Positions 4-12,320 of a DNA stretch of 64,000 nucleotides are shown in pieces. The DNA lies in assembly GCF_000828615.1 (NCBI RefSeq), contig NZ_AP012273.1:558001-622000 (forward strand), written 5' to 3'. The position numbers and the translations under genes were made by a program. The DNA comes from Thiolapillus brandeum (GTDB lineage Bacteria > Pseudomonadota > Gammaproteobacteria > Chromatiales > Chromatiaceae). The first letter of the stretch is position 1. Each line of letters starts with the position of its first letter. The notes below the pieces were generated by a model that did not search any database, was not told the origin of the DNA, and worked only from the letters and a program-made list of their open reading frames with translations.

Positions 4-687
4 ATGAATATGGGGCAGTTGTCTCTCCTGGAACAGGGCATTGCCGTGCTGGCCGCCCTGGTGTTGTTTACTTCCTTTGCGCTTCTGGCCCAAAGCCGCC
101 TGACCTCGGCCATACACAGTTTTGCCTGGCAGGGAGCCGGAGTGGCCCTGGTTACTGCCCTGGTGGCGTTTTCCAGCCATACGCCCCATTTGTATCTGTC
201 TGCTGTCCTGACCCTGGGTTTGAAGAGTCTGCTGATCCCCTGGATGCTGCATCGCCTGGTACGGCAGCTGAATATGGAACGCTTGGTGGAAAACATCACT
301 CATCCCGCTCTGTTGCTCCTCACGGGCGCTGCCCTGGTGATCTTTTCCTACTGGGTATCCCTGCCCATCGAGAAACTGGGCTTGGGCAATACCCGCAATA
401 TCGTGGCCATCAGTCTTTCGGTGGTATTGCTGGGGTTGTGGATGATGGTATCCCGGCGACAGGTCATCGCCCAGGTGCTGGGTTTCATGTCCATGGAGAA
501 CGGCCTGTTCCTGGCGGCCGTGGCATCCACCCGGGGCATGCCTCTGGTCGTGGAACTGGGGGTGGCCTTTGATGTGCTGGTGGCGGCGGTGCTGTTTGGC
601 ATCTTTTTCTTTCATATCAGTGAGAGCATCGAGTCCCTGGATGTGGACCGCCTGAATCGCCTCAGTGAACGGGAGGAGTCGGCATGA
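4..687 (+). CDS. Hydrogenase-4 component E-like membrane subunit (HyfE family)
   Basis: A 227-residue, almost entirely hydrophobic protein with about six or seven membrane segments, matching HyfE/NuoK-like subunits of hydrogenase-4-type complexes in length and pattern. It would form part of the membrane arm of an ion-pumping complex in the inner membrane. The ATG lies 4 bases from the window edge, so its ribosome binding site is out of view. The N-terminus resembles a normal HyfE start, and a second ATG follows two codons later. The stop overlaps the next start (ATGA), so it is the first visible gene of a translationally coupled operon with the HyfF-, HyfG- and HyfI-like genes; other subunits probably lie to the left. 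Confidence 0.85.
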   Translation: MNMGQLSLLEQGIAVLAALVLFTSFALLAQSRLTSAIHSFAWQGAGVALVTALVAFSSHTPHLYLSAVLTLGLKSLLIPWMLHRLVRQLNMERLVENITHPALLLLTGAALVIFSYWVSLPIEKLGLGNTRNIVAISLSVVLLGLWMMVSRRQVIAQVLGFMSMENGLFLAAVASTRGMPLVVELGVAFDVLVAAVLFGIFFFHISESIESLDVDRLNRLSEREESA

Positions 688-2153
688 GCGCTTTCTGGCT
701 GGTATTGATGCTGCCTGTAGTCGGCAGCTTCCTGTTGGCTCTGACCTCCAGCCTGGCCGTCAGCGGCTGGTTGAACGTGGCTTTCTGCGCTCTGGAATTC
801 CTGTCGTCGGTTGCGCTGGCGGTGCAGGTTCACGCCAACGGCAGCCTGTCCCTGACGGGGTTCCAGATAGATGCTTTCAATGTTTATCTGATCATGCTCA
901 CGACCTTTGTGGGCCTTACCACGGCGATTTTTTCCCGGCCCTATATGAAAGATGTGTGTGAACAGGGGCGTCTTACGCGCAAGCGCATGCGCCTTTATCA
1001 TGCCATGTTCCAGATGTTCCTGTTCACCATGCTCCTGGCCCTGAGCAGCGACAACCTGGGCATACTGTGGGTGGCCGTGGAGGGCGCCACCCTGGCCACG
1101 GTGCTGCTGGTGAGCCTGTACCGTACCCCGGAGTCCATCGAGGCCGCCTGGAAGTATTTCATCCTGTGTGGCGTGGGCATTGCCCTGGCTTTGTTTGGAA
1201 CGGTGCTGGTGTATTTCGCCGCTCAGCAGGTGTTGCCTGATGCAGAAGCCGGACTGAGCTGGCGGGTGCTCTACCAGCATGCAGGAGAACTGGATTCCCG
1301 GGTAATGAGTATCGCCTTTGTGTTTCTGCTGGTGGGGTACGGCACCAAGGTGGGGCTGGTGCCCATGCATTTCTGGCTTCCGGATGCCCATTCTGAAGGT
1401 CCCACACCCGTATCGGCGGTGCTGTCCGGTTTGCTGCTCAACGTAGCCCTGTATGCCGTGGTACGTTTCAAGATGCTGGTGGATGGTTCGCTTCAGAGCA
1501 CGGATACGCCCGCCATGGCCGGACTGCTGATGATGGCCTTTGGCCTGCTGTCCTTCGTGGTGGCGGTGCTTTCCCTGCAACGCCAGCGGGACATCAAGCG
1601 TATGTTCAGCTATTCATCCATCGAACACATGGGGCTGATGACTTTTGCCTTCGGCATGGGCGGCCCCCTGGCGACCTTTGCCGCCCTGTTGCACATGCTG
1701 GTGCATTCTCTCACCAAGTCCGCCATTTTCGTCACTGTGGGTCACGCCAGCCACATTGCCGGTACCCAGCGTATCGAGCATATCCGTGGTCTGATCCGCA
1801 CCCAGCCCGGCGTGGGCTGGGGTCTGCTTCTTGGCGTGGCGGCCATTGCCGGGTTTCCGCCTTTTGGGGTCTTTACCAGCGAATTTCTGATTCTCAGCGC
1901 CACCATACAGAGTTGGCCCTGGCTGACGGTGCTGCTGCTGGGCGGCCTGGGGGTGGCCTTCGCCGGACTGTTCCGCAATGTGCAGCCCATGGTTTACGGG
2001 GCGGCGCCCGAGGGGCAGGTGGCCGTGTCTGCCAATATGCTGCCGGTGCTGGTGCATCTTCTGGCAGTGCTCTGGCTGGGGCTGGCCATTCCCGCGGTGT
2101 TGTTTGGCTGGCTCAATGACGTGACTGTGCTGATCGCCGGGGAGGGCTTGTAA
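684..2153 (+). CDS. HyfF / NuoL-M-N-like proton antiporter-type subunit
   Basis: A 489-residue polytopic membrane protein of the Proton_antipo_M family (complex I NuoL/M/N, hydrogenase-4 HyfF). The conserved transmembrane glutamate is visible in VEGATL (Glu133), and the lysine of the central helix in YGTKVGLVPMH (Lys222), followed by the FWLPDAH signature; these belong to the proton path in the family. It overlaps the preceding gene by ATGA and the next by TAATG, so the subunits are probably made in stoichiometry. At 489 residues it matches the shorter HyfF/NuoN class and lacks the long lateral helix of NuoL. Role inferred: ion translocation coupled to the peripheral arm encoded by the next two genes. 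Confidence 0.88.
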   Translation: MSAFWLVLMLPVVGSFLLALTSSLAVSGWLNVAFCALEFLSSVALAVQVHANGSLSLTGFQIDAFNVYLIMLTTFVGLTTAIFSRPYMKDVCEQGRLTRKRMRLYHAMFQMFLFTMLLALSSDNLGILWVAVEGATLATVLLVSLYRTPESIEAAWKYFILCGVGIALALFGTVLVYFAAQQVLPDAEAGLSWRVLYQHAGELDSRVMSIAFVFLLVGYGTKVGLVPMHFWLPDAHSEGPTPVSAVLSGLLLNVALYAVVRFKMLVDGSLQSTDTPAMAGLLMMAFGLLSFVVAVLSLQRQRDIKRMFSYSSIEHMGLMTFAFGMGGPLATFAALLHMLVHSLTKSAIFVTVGHASHIAGTQRIEHIRGLIRTQPGVGWGLLLGVAAIAGFPPFGVFTSEFLILSATIQSWPWLTVLLLGGLGVAFAGLFRNVQPMVYGAAPEGQVAVSANMLPVLVHLLAVLWLGLAIPAVLFGWLNDVTVLIAGEGL

Positions 2154-3742
2154 TGGGGCGATTCGACTGGCTTTCTGAATATCTGGCGCGTCTTGAAGAT
2201 GAGCATGTGCTGGTGCGCCGTGGTTCCGCGCAAAAGCTGGCGCCCGCTCATGTCCTGGAAATCGATGCCGAAGACTGGGGACGGGCGGCGCGTCAGGCTT
2301 CTCTGATGGAATACCGCTGGTGTGGTCTTTGGGGGGATGAGAACGCCGGGCAGATCCGGGTGTATGCCTGTCTGGAGAATGATGGCGACTACCTGGTGTT
2401 GCAAACGGCTGTGGCCACGGATATGCCGGTGTTGCCCTCCCATGTGCCTTCCTATCCCATCGCGGATCGTCCCGAGCGGCATGCTCAGGACATGCTGGGC
2501 CTGGTGTTCAGTGATTCTCCTGATGAACGCCGCTGGATTCGTCACCAGGCCTGGCCGGAGTCTTCATACCCCCTGCGCCGGAATTTCTCCCTGCCGGAGC
2601 AAGCCGCCAGCCAGCCGGCCCCGGCGGACGGAGACTACCCGTTCCGGGCTATCAGGGGCGAGGGCGTTTGCGAGATTCCCGTGGGACCCGTGCATGCGGG
2701 CATCATCGAACCAGGGCATTTCCGCTTCAATGTCGTGGGCGAGGAGATTCTCAGCCTGGAGCAACACCTGGGATATGTACACAAGGGTATCGAGAAGGCC
2801 GCTGTCGGCCGTAGTCCTGAGGAACTGGTTCGCCTGGCTGGCCGGGTATCCGGGGACAGCAGCGTGGCCCATGCCTGGGCCGCCTGCCAGGCCCTGGAAA
2901 GAGCGAGCGGCTGTTATCCGGGGGCGCGGGATGTGGAGTTGCGCGGACTGTTCTGCGAGCGGGAACGGGTGGCCAATCACCTGGGAGATATTGGCGCCAT
3001 CTGCAACGATGTGGGCTTCGCCTTTGCGCTCTACCAATGCTCGCGCCTGCGGGAAGACTGGCTGCGCCGCAACCGGGAGTTGTTTGGTCATCGCCTGCTC
3101 ATGGATTTGCTGGTGCCGGGGGGCGTGACCAGGGATCTGGACAGTGCCGGCGTGGAAAGCCTGAAACAGGATCACCAGCGGCTGCGGCAGGAAACGGACG
3201 AGTTGTTCGATATTCTTCTGGATCAGCCTTCTCTGGAAGACCGGTTGTTGAATACCGGCGTGCTGCGTCCTGCCACGGCGAAAGCTCTGGGCTGTACCGG
3301 TTATGTGGGCAAGGCCAGTGGCCAGGGCTTCGATCTGCGCATCAGCAACCCCTATCCACCCTATGCGCAGCTGCCCATGACGGGGGTATGTCTGTCCGAG
3401 GGGGATGTCATGGCACGGGTACAGGTGCGCATGGAAGAGATACGCCACAGTCTGGCTTGGATGGATCAGCTCCTGGAGCGCTTTTCTCCGGGTGAGTCCA
3501 GCCGCGACTGGCGGATACCCGATGGCCCCTGCGAGGGTTTGGGGCTGGTGGAAGGCTGGCGCGGTGAGATCATCACCTATGTGCGCCTGGATGCCTCGGG
3601 GCGCGTGGCCCGGTTCTTTCCCCGTGATCCCAGCTGGCACAGCTGGCCGGCTCTGGAGCGCATCGTCATGGGTAATATCGTGCCGGACTTTCCCGTGTGC
3701 AACAAATCCGTCAATGGTTCCTATTCCGGGCAGGATCTCTGA
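2153..3742 (+). CDS. HyfG/HycE-like large subunit lacking Ni-ligand cysteines (Ehr-type)
   Basis: A 529-residue fusion of a complex I 30-kDa (NuoC-like) domain, roughly residues 1-130, and a 49-kDa/NiFe large-subunit domain, roughly 175-529. In true group 4 NiFe hydrogenases the nickel is held by two CxxC motifs. Here the first is replaced by serines (RVSGDS, Ser233 and Ser236). The C-terminal motif keeps one cysteine (Cys516) but has serine at the second position (Ser519, CNKS). A hydrogenase active site is therefore not expected. This matches the described energy-converting hydrogenase-related (Ehr) complexes. The actual electron donor is unknown. It overlaps the HyfF gene (TAATG) and the HyfI gene (TGATG). 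Confidence 0.85.
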   Translation: MGRFDWLSEYLARLEDEHVLVRRGSAQKLAPAHVLEIDAEDWGRAARQASLMEYRWCGLWGDENAGQIRVYACLENDGDYLVLQTAVATDMPVLPSHVPSYPIADRPERHAQDMLGLVFSDSPDERRWIRHQAWPESSYPLRRNFSLPEQAASQPAPADGDYPFRAIRGEGVCEIPVGPVHAGIIEPGHFRFNVVGEEILSLEQHLGYVHKGIEKAAVGRSPEELVRLAGRVSGDSSVAHAWAACQALERASGCYPGARDVELRGLFCERERVANHLGDIGAICNDVGFAFALYQCSRLREDWLRRNRELFGHRLLMDLLVPGGVTRDLDSAGVESLKQDHQRLRQETDELFDILLDQPSLEDRLLNTGVLRPATAKALGCTGYVGKASGQGFDLRISNPYPPYAQLPMTGVCLSEGDVMARVQVRMEEIRHSLAWMDQLLERFSPGESSRDWRIPDGPCEGLGLVEGWRGEIITYVRLDASGRVARFFPRDPSWHSWPALERIVMGNIVPDFPVCNKSVNGSYSGQDL

Positions 3743-4257
3743 TGTTCAGGATATTGCGTAAAACACTGGGTATCGGGGTGGTCACGGAGCAGGATCCGGC
3801 TGCTACGGACGAGGCTCTGGAATCCCTGGGTATCGAGGTGAAACGCTTGGTGGAGGCGCGTTTCAATGGCAGCCTGGCGATTCGTGAAGTGGATGCGGGT
3901 TCCTGCAATGGCTGTGAACTGGAGATTCATGCCATGAACAATCCTTATCATGATGTGGAACGCTTCGGCATTCATTTCGTGGCGTCCCCGCGGCATGCGG
4001 ATGTGCTGCTGGTGACCGGTCCCGTGAGCCGGCACATGGAAACCGCCCTGCTGCGCACCTGGGAGGCTACGCCTGCACCCAAGTGGGTCATCGCCTGTGG
4101 TGATTGCGCCTGTGATGGGGGCATCTTCGGCCAGGACAACTATGCCAGCTGTGGCGGTGTGGAAGCTGTGCTGCCGGTGGATCTGCGTATTTCCGGCTGT
4201 CCGCCAGCGCCCTTGGAACTGCTGGCAGGCCTGCGGGCACTGATTCAGGCGTCCTGA
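3742..4257 (+). CDS. HyfI / NuoB-like small iron-sulfur subunit
   Basis: A 171-residue protein of the complex I 20-kDa/NiFe small-subunit family. The ligands expected for the terminal [4Fe-4S] cluster are present: CNGC (Cys55, Cys58), GDC (Cys122) and GCPP (Cys153). An open frame continues upstream to 3697, but the ATG at 3742 overlaps the previous stop (TGATG) and gives a normal family N-terminus, so it was chosen. It should pass electrons to or from the HyfG-like subunit. The cluster ligands are intact while the partner's nickel ligands are lost, which is consistent with a functional electron-transfer module and not a decayed hydrogenase. Its last 13 bases overlap the convergent oxidoreductase gene. 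Confidence 0.88.
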   Translation: MFRILRKTLGIGVVTEQDPAATDEALESLGIEVKRLVEARFNGSLAIREVDAGSCNGCELEIHAMNNPYHDVERFGIHFVASPRHADVLLVTGPVSRHMETALLRTWEATPAPKWVIACGDCACDGGIFGQDNYASCGGVEAVLPVDLRISGCPPAPLELLAGLRALIQAS

Positions 4258-5324
4258 GCATAGCGCCGGATATCGGCGTTCTGCGGCAGGGGGTCGCCGC
4301 TCAGGAGCCACGCGGCCATGCGTTGCGCATACCAGGGGATGGTCAGGCTGCCATGAGCGCCAAAGCCGTTGAACATGTGCAACCGGGGCTGTTCGGGATG
4401 GGTGCCGATGAAGGGCTGGCGGTCAGCGGTGGCCGGACGCACTCCGGCGTCATTGCGTTCCAGTTCCAGTGCCTGCGGATGCCGCAGCAGTTTTTCCATG
4501 CCTTCCAGCAGTCTTTCCTTTCCCGATTCCGTGGGCTGGTTGTCCTGGCGGTCATGATAATGAGTGGCGCCCAGGCGGTAGCGGCCCTTGTCCACCGGTA
4601 GCAGCCAGGTGGCGCCATTGATGATTCGATCGGGCAGGGATTGATCCGAGACCCGCTTCAGGGTAAGGATTTCCCCCTGATCCGGGGCAAAGGGCAGCCA
4701 GTCGAACCAAGGATTGTGCATGGAGCGGTAACCGTCGCAAAAGATGGCATGGTCTGCCTGGATGCCATTGCAGGTGACGCCCTTGTCCCCGGGGGCCAAA
4801 TCGTTCCAGTCAACCGTCTGATGGCGCAGCATGTCCCGCTCCTGCATCCACTCTGCCATGAAAGCCAGCAGCTTTGGCAGTCTCACCCAGCCTGTGCGAT
4901 GCTGCTCAAAGCCCCCCCAGGGGGCCTGCACCGGTTGTGGGAAGTTGTCGGAATCCAGTTTTTCTCCAATGAGCATAGTGATCCCGGCTTTGTCTTTCTG
5001 ACGCTGGTAAAAGCGAATCTGTTCGGCGGAACGGAACAGACGCAGCATATCCAGCCACTGGAGAAAGTCCTGCCCTGCCAGGCCCGCCAGTTCATTGTAG
5101 GTTTGTTCCAGGCTGCGCAACCAGTCATGCACCAGGGGTGAGTGGTTGAAGCGCATACCCGCCAGAGGATTGATCAGCCCTGCGGCAACCATGCTGGAAG
5201 CCGTGGCGTGGCCATCATCCAGTACCAGCACCCTGGCGGCTTTTTGCGTCAGACACCAGGCCAGCAGGCTGCCCGCCAGGCCCTGGCCGATGATGAGGTA
5301 ATCGTAATGTGCTGTTGATGCCAT
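4245..5324 (-). CDS. FAD-dependent oxidoreductase (DAO family)
   Basis: A 359-residue protein with an N-terminal Rossmann dinucleotide-binding motif (Gly13-x-Gly15-x-x-Gly18, in IIGQGLAGS) and the overall layout of the D-amino-acid-oxidase (DAO) family. A C-terminal FAD-contact region contains TADRQPFIG and FNGFGAHG. Such enzymes oxidise amines or amino acids with FAD; the substrate cannot be told from sequence. No membrane segments are visible, so it is probably cytoplasmic. It is a single gene, divergent from the peptide transporter (38 bp between starts) and convergent with the HyfI-like gene, overlapping it by 13 bp. Confidence 0.82.
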   Translation of the reverse strand: MASTAHYDYLIIGQGLAGSLLAWCLTQKAARVLVLDDGHATASSMVAAGLINPLAGMRFNHSPLVHDWLRSLEQTYNELAGLAGQDFLQWLDMLRLFRSAEQIRFYQRQKDKAGITMLIGEKLDSDNFPQPVQAPWGGFEQHRTGWVRLPKLLAFMAEWMQERDMLRHQTVDWNDLAPGDKGVTCNGIQADHAIFCDGYRSMHNPWFDWLPFAPDQGEILTLKRVSDQSLPDRIINGATWLLPVDKGRYRLGATHYHDRQDNQPTESGKERLLEGMEKLLRHPQALELERNDAGVRPATADRQPFIGTHPEQPRLHMFNGFGAHGSLTIPWYAQRMAAWLLSGDPLPQNADIRRYAQDA

Positions 5325-5362
5325 TATACTTTGCCTTCAAGTCATAATAATCCACTACAAAC

Positions 5363-6712
5363 ATGAGCTACCGTACCCGCCCCCTGGATCAGAAAGGCAT
5401 GCCTGGCGGCATCCCCTACATTATCGGCAACGAGGCTGCTGAACGGTTCAGCTTCTACGGCATGCGCACCATCCTGGTGGTGTTTATGACCCAGTATCTC
5501 ATGGGCGCCGGGGGAGAACTGGCGACAATGAGTGATGAAGATGCCAAGGGCTGGTATCACTTGTTCGTGTCAGCGGTTTATTTTACGCCGTTGCTGGGGG
5601 CGGTTCTTGCCGACGTGTGGTGGGGAAAGTACAAGACCATTCTGCTCCTGTCCCTGGTGTACTGTGGGGGCCACCTGGCCCTGGCCCTGGATGATACCCG
5701 TGTGGGCCTGGCCATTGGTCTGGGGCTCATCGCCCTGGGGGCCGGAGGGATAAAGCCCTGTGTATCCGCCCATGTGGGGGATCAGTTCGGCCACAGCAAC
5801 CGTGGGCTCATCAGCCGCTCTTTTGGCTGGTTCTACATGGCCATCAATGTGGGAGCCTTCGTATCAACACTGCTTACTCCCTGGCTGCTCAAGCACTATG
5901 GTCCCCACTGGGCCTTTGGCGTACCCGGGGTGCTCATGGCCCTGGCTACCCTGCTGTTCTGGGCGGGGCGAAACAAATTCGTGCATGTGCCTCCAGCAGG
6001 CAAGGGCTTTCTGAAGGAGGCTCTTTCCCCCCGGAGCCTGCGTATCTTCGGGCGCCTGGGAATGATCTATGTGTTTATTGCGGTGTTCTGGTCCCTGTAT
6101 GACCAGACGGGGTCGTCCTGGGTGCTGCAGGCGCAGCAGATGGATCGGCACTTTCTGGGATTTGAGATGTTGCCGTCCCAGATCCAGGCCGTGAATCCGC
6201 TGCTGATCATTGTTCTGATTCCCCTGTTCAGTTACGTCATCTATCCGGCTCTGGGTAAGGTCATCAAGCTCACTCCCATGCGCAAGGTGGCCCTGGGCTT
6301 TTTGCTCGCAGCAGGGGCTTTCGCCGTATCTTCCCTGGCTCAGGAACGGATTGATGCAGGCAGCACCCCAGGCATCTCCTGGCAGTTGCTGGCTTACCTG
6401 CTGCTGACCTGCGGCGAGGTCATGGTTTCCATTACCGCGCTGGAATATTCCTATACCCAGGCGCCCCGGGCCATGAAGTCATTTATCATGGCCCTGTTCA
6501 TGCTGTCGGTGTCCCTGGGCAATATCTTCACCAGCCTGGTCAACTTCTTCATCCAGAATGACGACGGGACAGTGATGCTGGAAGGGGCGCAGTACTATTG
6601 GTTCTTTACGATTCTCATGGCGGTAACGGCAGCATTGTTTGCCCTGCTCACCCCCCTGATCAGGGACAAGACCATTCTTCAGGTCAGCGAGGGGTCTTCC
6701 AACGCGGCCTGA
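5363..6712 (+). CDS. POT/PTR family proton-dependent peptide transporter
   Basis: A 449-residue inner-membrane protein with about 12-14 hydrophobic helices. Near the N-terminus it has the POT family hallmark ERFSFYGMR, and further on the family's GxGGIKPC and NVGAF patterns. POT proteins import di- and tripeptides with protons. The spacing to the divergent oxidoreductase gene is only 38 bp, so both promoters must be packed there or overlap the genes. Its 3' end overlaps the convergent acyltransferase gene by 34 bp. Family assignment is firm; the exact substrate range is not visible. Confidence 0.9.
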   Translation: MSYRTRPLDQKGMPGGIPYIIGNEAAERFSFYGMRTILVVFMTQYLMGAGGELATMSDEDAKGWYHLFVSAVYFTPLLGAVLADVWWGKYKTILLLSLVYCGGHLALALDDTRVGLAIGLGLIALGAGGIKPCVSAHVGDQFGHSNRGLISRSFGWFYMAINVGAFVSTLLTPWLLKHYGPHWAFGVPGVLMALATLLFWAGRNKFVHVPPAGKGFLKEALSPRSLRIFGRLGMIYVFIAVFWSLYDQTGSSWVLQAQQMDRHFLGFEMLPSQIQAVNPLLIIVLIPLFSYVIYPALGKVIKLTPMRKVALGFLLAAGAFAVSSLAQERIDAGSTPGISWQLLAYLLLTCGEVMVSITALEYSYTQAPRAMKSFIMALFMLSVSLGNIFTSLVNFFIQNDDGTVMLEGAQYYWFFTILMAVTAALFALLTPLIRDKTILQVSEGSSNAA

Positions 6713-7428
6713 ATGACGGAACGGGAGGCTTCCGCCAGCCCCTTGCGATCGTATTCGGATGCCGGCAGGGTGCCGGAAAAGCACACATGCACCTGGCTGC
6801 CGGGGCGCGCCAGAATACCCAGCAGAATGCGAAAGAAGCTGCGTCCCCTGGTATAGGGCGCCAGGGTGTCCGGCTGTCCATTCACCCGGTAACACAGTGC
6901 CACGGGGATCACGGGAGCCCCCGTATCGATGGCGGCGCTGAACAGGCGCGGGAAAAAGCGCCGTACTTGTCTGCCGTCGGAGGTGGTTCCTTCCGGAAAG
7001 ATGGCCATACGGCGACCTTCTCTGAGGCGGGTGGCTATGGCCTGGGAAATGCGTTTTGCGTCATGTTTGCCGCGGCGGATGAACAAGGTTCCCGAGGCTA
7101 TGGCAAACCAGCCGATTACCGGCCAGTACCGGATACTGTTCTTGGACAGAAATGCCGAACCCGTGAGGGAATTGATCACCGGAATATCCAGCCAGGAAAC
7201 ATGGTTGGCGACCAGCAGGCCGCTTTCCCCGGGAATGTCGCCATGCACGATGACCTCCACCCCCAGGATGTCCAGTAGCCGGGCTGACCAGCGTGCTACG
7301 GGTTGTGGATCGGGAAAACTTACGCCATCAGGAGCCTGGCGCTTGTGAATGCTCAGGCTCAGCCAGATGCCATACAGGGTGTGCAGCAGCAGCAACAGGA
7401 AGCGCTGGATAATCCGGAGTAGTGTCAT
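6679..7428 (-). CDS. 1-acyl-sn-glycerol-3-phosphate acyltransferase (PlsC-like)
   Basis: A 249-residue lysophospholipid acyltransferase family protein. The catalytic HxxxxD motif is NHVSWLD (His76, Asp81), and the substrate-binding FPEGT motif follows (Phe144-Thr148). An N-terminal hydrophobic stretch (about residues 5-25) suggests membrane attachment. The family transfers acyl chains to lysophosphatidic acid, or in some members to ornithine or other lysolipids. The start overlaps the stop of the upstream methyltransferase gene by 4 bp (ATGA), so the two are co-transcribed. The gene's tail overlaps the convergent POT gene by 34 bp. Confidence 0.87.
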   Translation of the reverse strand: MTLLRIIQRFLLLLLHTLYGIWLSLSIHKRQAPDGVSFPDPQPVARWSARLLDILGVEVIVHGDIPGESGLLVANHVSWLDIPVINSLTGSAFLSKNSIRYWPVIGWFAIASGTLFIRRGKHDAKRISQAIATRLREGRRMAIFPEGTTSDGRQVRRFFPRLFSAAIDTGAPVIPVALCYRVNGQPDTLAPYTRGRSFFRILLGILARPGSQVHVCFSGTLPASEYDRKGLAEASRSVIQAALEDPSLT

Positions 7429-7976
7429 GCCTGCCGCTGCCTCGTGTATTCATACATGACGATAGAGGCGGCGATACTCACGTTGAGGCTTTCCACCCGG
7501 CCAAACTGGGGGATATGCAGGAGTTGGATGTCCGGATAGTCTGCCGGATCGAAACTCAGGCCAATCTCCTCGTGACCGAAGATGAATGCGCTGCGATCCG
7601 GCAGTATTTCCCCGGGCAGGGCATGGCGGCTGTCTGGCGACAGGGCATACAGGGTGTAGTCCCGGGCCCGCAGATCCTTGTGGCTTTGGTCAAAATTCCC
7701 GAAGAACCGGGCAGGTACCTGGCGAAAAGCACCCTTGGCCGGAGACGGGTCGAAAGGGCCAATGTCGATGAGCTGCACTTCGTGGGCTCCAAATGCTTCT
7801 GCGCTGCGAAAGATCTTGGGCACGTTGTAACCGGCCTTGAGATGATCGAGAACCACAATAAAGTCATGTTTCCCGGGTTTTGCAAGCAGATTGCGCCGCC
7901 GGTTCTTTTCGTAAGCGCGCAGCATTTGCTCACGCCGCCTTTCGCGAAACTTGCGCGCGGACAGTTTTTCGGTCAT
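7425..7976 (-). CDS. TrmH/SpoU family RNA 2'-O-methyltransferase
   Basis: A 183-residue SPOUT-fold methyltransferase. The three family motifs are visible: NVPKIFRSAEAFG (motif 1), FIFGHEEIGLS (motif 2) and LNVSIAASI near the C-terminus (motif 3, part of the SAM-binding knot). A basic N-terminus (about residues 5-30) could bind RNA, and there is no separate N-terminal substrate-recognition domain. The target, tRNA or rRNA, cannot be assigned. It is the first gene of a two-gene operon with the PlsC-like acyltransferase and is divergent from dxs across 67 bp. Confidence 0.85.
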   Translation of the reverse strand: MTEKLSARKFRERRREQMLRAYEKNRRRNLLAKPGKHDFIVVLDHLKAGYNVPKIFRSAEAFGAHEVQLIDIGPFDPSPAKGAFRQVPARFFGNFDQSHKDLRARDYTLYALSPDSRHALPGEILPDRSAFIFGHEEIGLSFDPADYPDIQLLHIPQFGRVESLNVSIAASIVMYEYTRQRQA

Positions 7977-8043
7977 GGAATTGCTCTAAACTGTTAGAAT
8001 GAGGGATTACCCCTATGCATAACTCACAAACGCATTCTACCCT

Positions 8044-9915
8044 ATGTCCAGCACCGGCGAGCAGTCATCCCCATCCTTGTTAGAGCAGGTTGACCTGCCG
8101 GAAGACCTGCGCCTGCTGGATATGGGGCAGCTGCAACCCCTGGCGGACGAATTGCGCGAGTTCCTGGTGGAGAGCGTGTCCCGCACGGGCGGTCATCTGG
8201 CTGCGGGTCTGGGCGTCGTGGAACTCACCGTGGCCCTGCATTATGTGTTCGATACCCCCAGGGACAAGCTGGTATGGGACGTGGGGCATCAGGCATATCC
8301 CCATAAAATTCTCACGGGCCGCCGGGAACGCATGGCGGGTCTGCGCCAGAAAGGGGGATTATCGGGATTCCTCAAGTGTAGTGAATCCGAGTACGATGCC
8401 TTTGGCGCGGGTCATTCCAGTACCTCCATAGGTGCCGCCCTGGGTATGGCCGTAGCGGCCAAACAGGAAGGCATACAGCGCGAGCATATTGCCGTCATCG
8501 GTGATGGGGCGCTGTCCGCAGGCATGGCTTTCGAGGCGCTGAATCACGCGGGCGCCCTGGACATGGATTTGTTGGTTGTCCTCAATGACAACGATATGTC
8601 CATTTCCAATCCCGTGGGAGCCGTGAGCAATTACCTCGCCCGAGTGCTGTCCAGCCGTTTTTACAACCGCGTGCGCGAGGGTGGCAAGAATGTTCTGGGT
8701 GTGATGCCGGGTATGCGCAATCTTGTCGATCGTTGGGAAGAGCATATGAAGGGTATGCTGATCCCAGGAACCCTGTTCGAGGAACTGGGTTTCAACTATA
8801 TCGGCCCCATCGATGGCCATGACTTGCCCCTCATGGTGCAGACTCTGCGTAACATGAAGCAGATGCGCGGACCGCGCTTCCTGCACGTGGTCACCCAGAA
8901 GGGCCGGGGTTTTGCTCCGGCGGAAGGTGATCCCTGTGTCTATCATGGTGTCGGGCCTTTTGATCCGGATACCGGTCAGCAGAACGGGTCCGGCAGCAGT
9001 GGCAAGACTTATACCCAGGTATTTTCCGACTGGATCTGCGGCCAGGCGGCTGAAGACGAGCGCCTGTTGGCCATCACACCTGCCATGTGCGAGGGCTCTG
9101 GTCTGGTGCAGTTCGCTACGGACTTTCCGCGTCGTTATTTCGACGTGGGCATTGCTGAGCAACATGCTGTGACTCTGGCAGCCGGGATGGCCTGCGATGG
9201 TTTGAAACCTGTGGTGGCCATCTACTCCACTTTCCTGCAACGGGCTTATGACCAGTTGATTCACGATGTGGCTCTGCAAAATCTCGATGTTACTTTTGCG
9301 GTAGACCGGGCCGGTCTGGTGGGCGCTGATGGCGCCACTCACGCTGGTGCATACGATCTGAGCTATGTTCGTTGTATTCCCAATATGAGCATTTTGGCGC
9401 CTGCCGATGAAAATGAGTGTCACCATATGCTCCAGGCCGCCTGGGAGCACCCGGGACCCGCCATGGTGCGCTATCCCCGGGGCAAGGGGACTGGTGTGGA
9501 AGTGGAGGCCGGCCAGGCTTTGCCCTGGGGCAAAGGGGAGATCCGCAGGGAAGGACAGCGTGTAGCCCTGCTGTGTTTTGGCAGTATGCTGGCTACCGGC
9601 ATGCAGGTGGCGGAGGCATTGGATGCTACGGTTGTGAACATGCGTTTTGTCAAACCGCTGGATGTTCAACTGCTTCAGGAGATGGCGGCGAGCCATGAGC
9701 TGCTGGTAACCCTGGAGGAGAATGCGCTCATGGGTGGCGCAGGTTCGGCGGTTGCCGAAGCGCTCAATGAGAAGGGGATTCAGGTGCCCCTGCTGCCCTT
9801 TGGCCTGCCGGACAGATACCTGGAGCAGGGCACCCAGCGCGAGCAACTGGAAATGGCAGGCCTGACCGCAGGGCAGATTCTCCCGATCCTGCGGGAGCGC
9901 CTGGGCGGACTCTGA
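8044..9915 (+). CDS. dxs: 1-deoxy-D-xylulose-5-phosphate synthase
   Basis: A 623-residue, full-length DXS, the thiamine-diphosphate enzyme that condenses pyruvate and glyceraldehyde 3-phosphate at the entry to the MEP isoprenoid pathway. The ThDP/Mg motif is complete: GDG (153-155) to NDN (181-183). The catalytic glutamate lies in GIAEQHA (Glu372). The usual order of ThDP-binding, pyrimidine-binding and C-terminal transketolase domains is present. It stands alone on the plus strand, divergent from the SpoU methyltransferase and convergent with the ArsB/NhaD transporter 23 bp away. Confidence 0.97.
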
Positions 9916-9938
9916 TCAGGCCGGTCTGTTCTCCCGGA

Positions 9939-11291
9939 TCAGCGGGGAATGGGCTGCCCGAAGAAATCGAAGAACATCCACATCAGAATTGAAGACGTCA
10001 CCAGGGTCAGAATCATCGCGGGTGTGCCTTTGCGGAACCAGAGTCCCGGTGTGATGCGCCAGTCAGCGTTGCCGGTCTCCCTGGCAATTCGCTCTGACAG
10101 GGTGACGATGAATACGTTGGCAGTAGAGCCAAGGTGTGTACCATTGCCGCCCATGCCCACTCCCACAGCCAGTGCCCACCACAAGGGGGATACATTGATA
10201 CCCTGTTGCTCCAGGCCCATGATGATGGGAATCATGGCAGCGGTGAAGGGTATGTTGTCGATCATGGCGGAGAGGATGGCGGCTACCCACATGAGCAGGA
10301 TGGATGCCAGCAGCAGGTCCGATTCCACGAAGGGACGAATGAACTGCCCCAGGTACTCAAGGAAATGGCTGTTTTCCACTCCGCCCACCAGGACGAACAG
10401 GGACATGAAGAACATCAACAGGCTCAGTTCCACGTCCTCCAGGGTGTCATCCATATCAACATTTTTTGAAATCAATAGCAGGATGGACAGCCCCAGAACC
10501 GCCACTACCCAGGGTTCCCAATGCAGGTGATGATGGAAAATGAAGAATACCACCATGACCGCCAGTACCAGCAGGGACATGCGCCAAGTGTAGGGATCGG
10601 TCAGTTTTTCCTGGTCTTCAAAGCCGGGTTGTTCCGTTTTGCCGCTGAGTTCCTTATTGAACAGGAATTTCAGAGCGACCAGGATGGCGACCCAGGCCAC
10701 CAACACCAGACCACCCATTTTTATGATAAAGGTGTTGAAGTCGATGTGCGCTGCAGAGCCGATCATCAGGTTGGGAGGATCCCCCACCAGAGTGGCTACG
10801 CCCCCAGTGTCGGATAACAGGGCGGCGGCCAACAGGTAGGGCACGGGCGAGGTTTTCAGCGCCTGTGCGATGAGAACGATAAGAGGTCCGAAGATCACTA
10901 CCGTAGTCACGTTGTCCAGCAACAGAGAGAATACCGTGACAGCCGTACCCAGCAGGGCCATGAGCAGGAACTGCCGTCCCTTGCTGAAGTCTGCGATTTG
11001 GTAGGCCAGTACCTGGAAACCCCCCGTGGGAATCATGATGGCGACTATGGTCATCATGGCGCCCAGGAGAAACACCACGTTCCAGTCGATGGCTTCCAGG
11101 GCCATTTGGGGATCGTAAAACCCCATCAACTGGCCAGCCAGCACCATCATGGCTGCGCCGCCCATGGCAAACTTGGTGCGGTGAAAACCATGCACCCCTT
11201 CGGTAAATATGCCGATGAATGTAGCGCCCAGGATGATTCCGGAAACAGCCATGCTGTTGGTCCAGGTCAGGGTCTCGGTAATCGCTTCCAT
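9939..11291 (-). CDS. ArsB/NhaD family ion transporter
   Basis: A 450-residue, roughly 11-12 helix membrane protein of the ion-transporter superfamily that holds ArsB, P-permeases and NhaD. The family signatures DNVTT, GDPPNLMIGS and, in the second repeat, DNIPFT and GNGTHLGS are visible. An inner-membrane anion or Na+/H+ exchange role is expected; the substrate is uncertain. It lies downstream of prk in the same orientation but is separated from it by a strong terminator (11383-11426), so it is probably transcribed on its own. Confidence 0.85.
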   Translation of the reverse strand: MEAITETLTWTNSMAVSGIILGATFIGIFTEGVHGFHRTKFAMGGAAMMVLAGQLMGFYDPQMALEAIDWNVVFLLGAMMTIVAIMIPTGGFQVLAYQIADFSKGRQFLLMALLGTAVTVFSLLLDNVTTVVIFGPLIVLIAQALKTSPVPYLLAAALLSDTGGVATLVGDPPNLMIGSAAHIDFNTFIIKMGGLVLVAWVAILVALKFLFNKELSGKTEQPGFEDQEKLTDPYTWRMSLLVLAVMVVFFIFHHHLHWEPWVVAVLGLSILLLISKNVDMDDTLEDVELSLLMFFMSLFVLVGGVENSHFLEYLGQFIRPFVESDLLLASILLMWVAAILSAMIDNIPFTAAMIPIIMGLEQQGINVSPLWWALAVGVGMGGNGTHLGSTANVFIVTLSERIARETGNADWRITPGLWFRKGTPAMILTLVTSSILMWMFFDFFGQPIPR

Positions 11292-11382
11292 AGTTTCACC
11301 ATGTATCTTGATCTGTGTTACTGACAGCTACAGCGGGTTTCCAACGAAATACTGGGGCGCCCCGGAACGGTTGGGTTTGCTG

Positions 11383-11426
11383 AACAACAAAAGGCCATCT
11401 TGTCCTCATGTCGGACAAGATGGCCT
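11383..11426 (-). terminator. Rho-independent terminator of prk
   Basis: A perfect 14-bp inverted repeat (11392-11405 with 11413-11426, 7-nt loop) lies 22 bp past the prk stop codon. Read on the minus strand, the hairpin runs straight into a T-rich tract (TTTTGTTGTT). This is the best intrinsic terminator in the window and insulates the ArsB/NhaD gene from prk transcription. Confidence 0.85.
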
Positions 11427-11447
11427 CGAACCGGTAGCTGAGGGAAA

Positions 11448-12320
11448 TCAGCCGCGCTCATGCATCATTTTATCAATAATGGGGCCAAGGATAATTTCCA
11501 TGGCGAAGCCCATTTTTCCGCCAGGTACAACGATAGTATTGCGCCGGGACATAAAGCTGTCGGGAATCATGTTCAGCAGATAGGGAAAATCGGTGTCGAA
11601 CTTCTCCGGATCGGCAAACCGGATGACCACGAAACTTTCGTCCGGAGTAGGGATGTCCCGGGCGATAAAGGGGTTGGAGGTATCCACCGTGGCCACCCGC
11701 TGGAAGTTGATGTCCGTGCGGGAGAACTGCGGGGTGATGTGGTTGATGTAGTCCGGCATGCGGCGCATGATGGTTTCCACCGTGGCTTCTGCGGAATAGC
11801 CACGCTCCTTGGCATCGCGGTGGATCTTCTGGATCCACTCCAGGTTCACCACGGGAACTACGCCGATACCCAGATCAACCTGACTGGCTACGTCGTTCTC
11901 ATCGGTGACCACCATGCCGTGCAGGCCTTCATAGAACAGCAGGTCGGTGCCACCGGGAATGTCTTCCCAGGGCGTAAACTCGCCAGGTTTTTTGTCACAG
12001 CCCAGGCGTGCATTGTGCTCGTCTGCTTCCTCCTGGCTGTGCAGATAGTACCGCTTCTGGCCACGGCCGGTTTCACCATAGACCCGGAACAATTCTTCGA
12101 TCTTGTCGAAACGGTTGGCCTCCGGGCCAAAATGGCTCAGGTGCTCTTCCGTCATTTTGGATTTCATTTCTGCGCGGTCGTAGCGATGGAAGCTGTCGCC
12201 CTCCACGATGGCGGCTTCTATCCCTTCACGGGTGAATATGTGCTCGAAGGCACGCTTGACGGTGGTGGTGCCAGCACCGGATGAGCCGGTCACTACTACG
12301 ACGGGGTGTTTTTGGGACAT
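11448..12320 (-). CDS. prk: Phosphoribulokinase
   Basis: A 290-residue bacterial (class I) phosphoribulokinase, of typical length. It phosphorylates ribulose 5-phosphate to ribulose 1,5-bisphosphate, the Rubisco substrate, in the Calvin-Benson cycle. The P-loop GSSGAGTT is near the N-terminus (about residues 12-19), followed by the EGDSFHRYDR region typical of PRK. A strong Shine-Dalgarno GGAGGA sits at 12325-12330. No Rubisco or other cbb genes lie in the window; prk stands alone between two ion transporters with its own terminator and a candidate promoter. This is the main evidence for an autotrophic organism. Confidence 0.96.
   Translation of the reverse strand: MSQKHPVVVVTGSSGAGTTTVKRAFEHIFTREGIEAAIVEGDSFHRYDRAEMKSKMTEEHLSHFGPEANRFDKIEELFRVYGETGRGQKRYYLHSQEEADEHNARLGCDKKPGEFTPWEDIPGGTDLLFYEGLHGMVVTDENDVASQVDLGIGVVPVVNLEWIQKIHRDAKERGYSAEATVETIMRRMPDYINHITPQFSRTDINFQRVATVDTSNPFIARDIPTPDESFVVIRFADPEKFDTDFPYLLNMIPDSFMSRRNTIVVPGGKMGFAMEIILGPIIDKMMHERG

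Follow-up and report, generated by a model that had tools for sequence, protein, structure and literature searches.

The genes hyfE, hyfF, hyfG and hyfI (positions 4-4257, plus strand, from the list of open reading frames, ORFs) lie at the left end of the window, the whole analysed stretch of 64,000 nucleotides (C1:558001-622000) of the 3.15 Mb Thiolapillus brandeum genome (G000, listed as 100% complete). They belong to an operon of the order hyfB-C-E-F-G-I that starts 5' of the window and, judged by sequence, encodes the known six-subunit energy-converting hydrogenase-related (Ehr) complex (hyfBCEFGI = ehrABCDLS). The membrane pump of hydrogenase 4 is here combined with a nickel-free catalytic module, and we consider it probable that the complex is a redox-driven ion pump with its reaction in the old nickel-iron (NiFe) pocket. 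Coupling of a redox reaction to ion pumping, presumed for Ehr complexes as a family, is suggested here by the retained cluster cysteines, a loop glutamate and the pump residues. The Ehr identity, already put forward in the original prediction, is supported by the loss of all four nickel ligands, by the six-gene composition, by a separate clade in the tree and by a search of the genome for HypD, without a match at E <= 1e-5 (other Hyp proteins were not searched). No PF00374 hydrogenase match was found in the genome either, and a HypD match was lacking in 23 of the 43 genomes that carry Ehr, this one included and some of them drafts.

The hyfG product is, as predicted, a HyfG/HycE-like protein of 529 residues (Pfam Complex1_49kDa and 30kDa; best PDB sequence match HycE, 7z0s_E, E 3.8e-61). 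Both nickel motifs of HycE align with it without gaps, RVCGICGFAH opposite RVSGDSSVAH and DAPLIIGSLDPCYSCTDR opposite DFPVCNKSVNGSYSGQDL. Cys241, Cys244, Cys531 and Cys534 of HycE are replaced by Ser233, Ser236, Ser523 and Gly526, which leaves no cysteine at the four ligand positions; an alignment that places other cysteines there was looked for and did not occur. Ser233 and Ser236 had been named correctly as substitutes of the first CxxC. The second motif had been misread: Ser519, taken for the replacement of the last cysteine, was rejected as such because the aligned HycE residue is serine too, and Cys516, taken for a retained ligand, was rejected because it stands ungapped opposite an isoleucine and is cysteine in only 88 of 118 rows.

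The old NiFe pocket is rebuilt with a fixed set of new residues and not decayed. Its signature in the Ehr large subunit is SGD[S/T]...NKSxNxSYSGxDL. Among 120 large-subunit rows (113 distinct strings, with L111 as the window's own copy; L and G numbers denote loci and genomes), position 233 is serine in 112 and cysteine in 3, position 236 is serine or threonine in 117, and Asp235 is present in all 120. Position 523 is serine in 111 of 118 rows, Gly526 occurs in 118 of 118, and Asn517, Lys518, Ser519, Tyr524 and Asp528 are invariant in these 118 rows. A set of 37 distinct rows served as a check and gave Asp235, Asn517, Lys518, Ser519, Asn521 and Tyr524 as invariant. Asp235, Asp279, Asn517, Lys518 and Asn521, all near-invariant in Ehr, are absent from every one of the proteins aligned for comparison, namely four active hydrogenases, four NuoD proteins and four members of a second nickel-free clade (see below); His313, which two of the four second-clade proteins share, is not Ehr-specific.

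The last residue of the Thiolapillus protein stands opposite HycE Arg537, which is the end of mature HycE. The C-terminal extension of HycE-type large subunits is removed by a maturation protease. HycE and HyfG themselves and an Azospirillum hydrogenase-4 extend past the aligned arginine, and Ehr proteins stop there in all 40 rows examined; the same stop occurs in NuoD proteins and in one other group 4 enzyme (L187) and is thus not unique to Ehr. The predicted fold is nearest to HycE (Z 44.5, root mean square deviation 2.4 over 494 residues), with E. coli NuoCD at Z 41.3.

Residues of HycE with described roles (Glu193 as proton-donating loop residue, the canopy and the proton path, according to passages of PMC9474812) were located in the same alignment. 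The loop glutamate Glu193 corresponds to Glu186 (119/120 rows), the canopy residue Arg478 to Arg470 (118/118), and His284 and Glu437 of the proton path to His276 and Glu429 (each 120/120); canopy Asp529 is replaced by Asn521 (117/118). The small subunit HyfI has Cys55, Cys58, Cys122 and Cys153 at the ligand positions of the proximal 4Fe-4S cluster, numbered 70, 73, 137 and 168 if counted from GTG 3697. All four, correctly listed in the original prediction, are invariant in 108 of 108 rows. The HyfI motif CNGC aligns ungapped with CNAC of E. coli HyfI and is of the CxxC type known from hydrogenases, whereas complex I has CC. The charged residues of the pump are likewise invariant or nearly so (HyfF Glu133, Lys222, Lys345 and Glu400; HyfB Glu158, Lys238, Lys367 and Glu422; HyfE Glu165 and Glu184; a Glu/Asp series in HyfC). 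The claim of two intact membrane subunits thus holds for HyfE and HyfF, which are intact ORFs with these residues kept, but the operon has four.

Ehr complexes are common. In a sample of 276 genomes from across the class, a profile from nine close homologues detected the family in 37, of which 36 scored above 450 bits and one is a fragment in G289; a gap divides these scores from those of a second type (265-302 bits) and of other homologues including NuoD (<175 bits). The wider relatives, considered as the best 80 of 567 matches so that distant ones are under-sampled, come by title from purple sulphur bacteria, methanotrophs, Nitrospirae, Geobacteraceae, Gallionella, Mariprofundus, Rhodoferax, Accumulibacter, Caballeronia and others. 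Plasmid copies with 42-47% identity occur in Rhizobium, Azospirillum and Cupriavidus, with the motif checked for Rhizobium only. The order B-C-E-F-G-I is found in 69 of 69 complete loci (of 90), and the 21 partial ones show no other gene order; insertions within the operon occur at L068, L072 and L077.

A maximum-likelihood tree (residues from 170 on, rooted on E. coli NuoCD, some genomes repeated) shows 59 Ehr rows as monophyletic, with a nickel-free clade of eight as sister and both beside HyfG/HycE; each of these three nodes has an ultrafast bootstrap (UFBoot) support of 100. Clustering with active group 4 hydrogenases, represented by three Hyf/Hyc enzymes and one other group 4 enzyme, was thus checked, and Ehr stood apart. 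Towards the copy of the congeneric G004, the ratio of nonsynonymous to synonymous substitution rates (dN/dS) is 0.136 for hyfG and 0.06 for hyfF. Because dN/dS indicates purifying selection and the substitutions are common to the family, the losses are more than chance. That the genes are a decaying hydrogenase-4 operon without function, as the lost metal ligands and E. coli-type genes might suggest, is already contradicted by this selection, by the constant six-gene order and by the near-invariant new pocket residues, and we regard it as practically untenable.

The sister group is a second nickel-free Hyf-like clade (L174-L180; G060, G230, G208, G260, G125 and G154) with serine at the first nickel position and no nickel ligands. 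Unlike Ehr its proteins end in GLxxAxxDR, and a HycF-like gene follows the large subunit in L175, L176, L177 and L179. Genome G230 carries two such operons within one 20 kb stretch.

How the complex might work can be sketched as follows. A soluble carrier or protein encoded elsewhere would exchange electrons with the single HyfI cluster, the HyfH wire being gone. A small polar substrate may bind in the former NiFe pocket, formed by Asp235, Lys518, Asn517, Asn521, Ser523 and Tyr524, and would there be reduced or oxidised, with protons passing via Glu186. Movement of the surrounding loops could then drive the passage of H+ or Na+ by way of HyfC, HyfE, HyfF and HyfB, a process that may be reversible. 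Several points weigh against such a pump. Since there is a single cluster and no ferredoxin-like subunit was found, a route for electrons is harder to see than in Hyc, MBH, MBS or complex I. Arg395 of the HycE proton path is Lys387 here (arginine in 88, lysine in 31 of 120 rows). Residues 149-210 and 524-529, which form part of the pocket, are poorly predicted in the AlphaFold model, and the pocket geometry rests on the alignment. Moreover, no electron donor, acceptor, docking subunit or general oxidoreductase family was among the commonest flank families in 294 of 355 flanking ORFs.

This flank census comprised 355 chosen ORFs, some surely not genes, of which 294 were scanned with Pfam in two batches (146 + 148), 47 remained unscanned and 14 of >900 residues were dropped; six loci were left out as near-repeats, and the 25 commonest families per batch were tabulated. 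Recurrent families were SulP (12 members, first batch), histidine kinases (8) and DUF2490 (6), and the most frequent flavoprotein families had 3 members of 148. The original prediction had advised reading the genes left of the window for partners: hyfB, hyfC and a regulator of the XRE type were found there, but no redox partner stood out.

The closest characterised relatives are Hyf and Hyc of E. coli, with identities over the aligned parts of 32% for HycE, 44% for HyfF (346 residues), 40% for HyfB, 42% for HyfI and 28% for HyfE (148 residues). In contrast to them, the present complex has no nickel cysteines, no C-terminal extension, asparagine for the canopy aspartate and a genome without HypD match. 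No HyfA, HyfH or HycF match was obtained by tblastn with E. coli queries here or in nine relatives, and no separate HyfD, the best match of the HyfD query being hyfB or hyfF. The HycF absence has a positive control, since the same query finds the gene in four sister-clade operons. Could the complex be a formate-linked, hydrogenlyase-like machine that takes electrons from a formate dehydrogenase? Such a function is proposed for other Ehr complexes in a passage of PMC6349859, and Geobacter Ehr subunits were more abundant on formate according to a part of PMC7894505. We hold this to be highly improbable. The formate dehydrogenase alpha subunit (TIGR01591, which may not cover every formate dehydrogenase type) exceeded the curated cut-off in only 18 of 43 Ehr genomes, not in G000, and gave no match at all at E <= 1e-5 in G106 and G214; no formate dehydrogenase is among the 25 commonest flank families of either batch, and HyfA and HyfH were not found. 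Formate dehydrogenase was accordingly rejected as a constant partner, as were HypD and DabA, none of which is constant across Ehr genomes.

With complex I, the Ehr complex shares the fold, the pump subunits and the C-terminal end point of the large subunit. It might therefore be a short complex I, in which the single cluster reduces a quinone bound in the old NiFe cavity; Asp286 matches complex I and Asn275 the NuoD of the same genome, though not E. coli NuoCD. The residues described for the quinone headgroup (Nqo4 His38 and Tyr87, according to literature excerpts) are nevertheless aligned with isoleucine and glycine, the small subunit has the CxxC of hydrogenases instead of the NuoB CC, no NADH module is present in the Thiolapillus brandeum operon, and one or more additional homologues with lower scores, probably NuoD, are present in 35 of the 37 Ehr genomes. 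We thus judge a short complex I to be quite unlikely. In the small genomes G106 (L163) and G214 (L159), the large-subunit profile matches nothing but Ehr at E <= 1e-10, and no HypD was detected at E <= 1e-5; these are candidates in which Ehr may replace complex I. A NuoD paralogue that is neither Ehr nor ordinary NuoD occurs at L016-L021 (G016, G015, G007, G021, G037 and G014), in members of the same genus and family and in one genome further removed; it carries a single cysteine in each of the motifs RICVPDP and SLDACPPEVDR.

MBS of Pyrococcus is, like the present complex, a group 4 relative without nickel site, and passages of PMC7684303 describe it as a solved structure that reduces polysulphide at the proximal cluster. 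By analogy, Ehr could be a sulphane-sulphur reductase with an open iron of the proximal cluster as catalyst, and the names of several hosts among the best 80 of 567 relatives are those of sulphur oxidisers. According to the same source, MBS has lost the proton glutamate, its CxxC is shortened by three residues with one cysteine not ligating, and its subunit MbsN carries two further clusters. Here, in contrast, Glu186, the full-length CxxC and all cluster ligands are kept, no MbsN-like or other ferredoxin-type subunit was found in the operon, and the hosts include methanotrophs and rhizobia. MBS is a precedent for a nickel-free group 4 relative, but the MBS-specific changes are not found here, and the reductase reading appears very unlikely.

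A further alternative concerns SulP-type transporters, with which the complex might handle an anion or inorganic carbon (bicarbonate/CO2 or sulphate) and not be primarily an oxidoreductase. It could be likened to the DAB system and to the NDH-1 of cyanobacteria that serves CO2 uptake. A SulP gene is clustered with the operon at 15 of 90 loci; at L040 and L100 it lies on the opposite strand. In ten methanotroph loci (L045, L048, L049, L051, L053, L054, L056, L057, L063 and L080), SulP lies upstream of and co-directional with hyfB, with a 4-base overlap of both ORFs in L045, and in a further locus, Methylocaldum L068, it stands inside the operon between hyfF and hyfG. In its most specific form this alternative makes Ehr and SulP one anion- or inorganic-carbon-handling machine, in which the pocket (Asp235, Lys518, Asn517) would bind a small anion, the iron-sulphur cluster would be regulatory or structural, and the pump would trade the ion gradient for anion transport or the work of CO2 hydration. 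However, the SulP linkage is mostly found in methanotrophs and involves two subfamilies, the type found in methanotrophs stays below every curated SulP cut-off, a SulP substrate is not assignable, and the cluster cysteines of HyfI are invariant. On a methanotroph plasmid (L184), no SulP is annotated beside the operon.

The inorganic-carbon version can be confronted with the distribution of Calvin-cycle genes, one of which had been given weight in the original prediction. Phosphoribulokinase follows hyfI by 130-210 bp in L026 (G017), with RuBisCO and a CbbR-like gene nearby. In G297, a RuBisCO cluster starts about 6 kb and a carbonic-anhydrase-like gene (named by eye) lies about 11 kb from the operon; both RuBisCO genes were identified by PF00016. 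In Acidithiobacillus caldus, hyfBCEFG stand beside a beta-carbonic anhydrase according to an excerpt of PMC3826726, and 19 of the 24 closest relatives have RuBisCO, with a cut chosen after seeing the data. Across the sample, though, RuBisCO is not associated with Ehr (21/37 Ehr genomes versus 116/239 others, counted only at E < 1e-100 and excluding 14 weaker matches as likely RuBisCO-like proteins), nor is DabA (8/37 versus 57/239), the DAB/DIC transporter partner (PF10070), which had no match in G000. RuBisCO occurred in the searched flanks of only two genomes, and linkage to Calvin-cycle genes is rare across the fetched flanks. Ehr and RuBisCO lie on one contig in 8 of 26 RuBisCO-bearing genomes checked, at distances, worked out by hand, of <=30 kb in G017, G297, G095 and G141 (a threshold chosen afterwards; G095 and G297 are one family), 66 kb in G079 and >1 Mb in G000, G132 and G143; in Thiolapillus brandeum, RuBisCO is 1.24 Mb away and the phosphoribulokinase gene of the window 7.2 kb from hyfI. 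The weight on the Calvin-cycle gene was therefore misplaced, and a Calvin-cycle function was rejected as a general explanation despite local linkage in some lineages. A literature search found no paper joining hydrogenase 4 with RuBisCO, carbonic anhydrase or bicarbonate. Altogether we consider an anion- or carbon-handling role unlikely, and the specific SulP machine has a slim chance of being correct.

Published statements on these genes, as far as the source passages go, are divided between an unknown function and a hydrogenase or formate-linked enzyme. The so-called incomplete Hyf or Ehr complexes, with the same six subunits and a large subunit without nickel motifs, are those from which no difference is established here. 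Their function is given as unknown for Sulfobacillus (passage of PMC4378227) and comammox Nitrospira (passage of PMC10284858), and a part of PMC7894505 states that Geobacter Ehr was never investigated. For hyfBCEFGI of Cupriavidus (H16_A2196-A2201 in C. necator H16), an excerpt of PMC2864759 judges a role in lithotrophic growth unlikely; for Acidithiobacillus, which has the same genes, an excerpt of PMC7735108 classes the A. ferrooxidans protein as a non-hydrogenase. Genes of this kind are regarded as a group 4 hydrogenase in passages of PMC5596200 and PMC3826726. To this we add the pocket signature, for which absence from print is not claimed, the stand-alone six-gene anatomy with its regulator, and the negative partner tests. 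For tests of function, these results name the residues that take the place of the nickel ligands, show HypD to be dispensable and the six genes to stand alone, and list proposed partners that do not track with them. They place Ehr as a second outcome of nickel loss beside complex I.

The operon features are compiled in Table 1. A regulator ORF of 94 residues (XRE type) precedes hyfB and ends where hyfB starts; 5' of it lies a CcmI/CycH gene, among others that resemble cytochrome c maturation genes by eye. XRE regulators were found at 26 of 128 loci, in 26 of 26 cases on the same strand and <=400 bases from the hyfB start.

Table 1 Features of the Thiolapillus brandeum hyf (ehr) operon in window coordinates.
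Feature	Position	Strand	Remarks
hyfB	left of window		ORF C1:555012-557057 (L004 10012-12057)
hyfC (NuoH-like membrane subunit), last codons	1..7	+	whole ORF C1:556916-558007 (L004 11916-13007)
hyfE-like membrane subunit, 227 aa	4..687	+	NCBIfam hydrogenase 4 membrane subunit E 2.7e-24, under its cut-off
hyfF-like antiporter-type subunit, 489 aa	684..2153	+	passes two HyfF cut-offs
hyfG/ehrL-like large subunit, 529 aa	2153..3742	+	NuoC-like and NuoD-like domains
hyfG codons 233-236 (SGDS)	2849..2860	+	position of first Ni-binding CxxC
hyfG codons 517-529 (NKSVNGSYSGQDL)	3701..3739	+	rebuilt second Ni motif; Ser523 and Gly526 at Cys positions
hyfI/ehrS-like small subunit, 171 aa	3742..4257	+	from ATG 3742 (186 aa from GTG 3697)

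Near the operon, dxs, an NhaD-like Na+/H+ antiporter gene (named by eye) and the phosphoribulokinase gene stand together at 8044-12320 of the window; dxs and phosphoribulokinase likewise adjoin Ehr in another genus (L026). The XRE regulator was not detected at the Nitrospirae-type loci L074, L084 and L099; there, the gene immediately before hyfB is of the helix-turn-helix type. In L042, from a Thiomargarita metagenome-assembled genome, a TauE-like gene, SulP, hyfF and hyfG are consecutive (5087-11593), with no hyfB, hyfC or hyfE found upstream on the stretch, so that the operon is either partial or rearranged. Additional copies close to the first operon comprise a second Ehr gene set in L062, L065 and L110, a second hyfI in L077 and a second hyfB in L082; the second large subunits of L062 and L110 form the deepest branches within Ehr.

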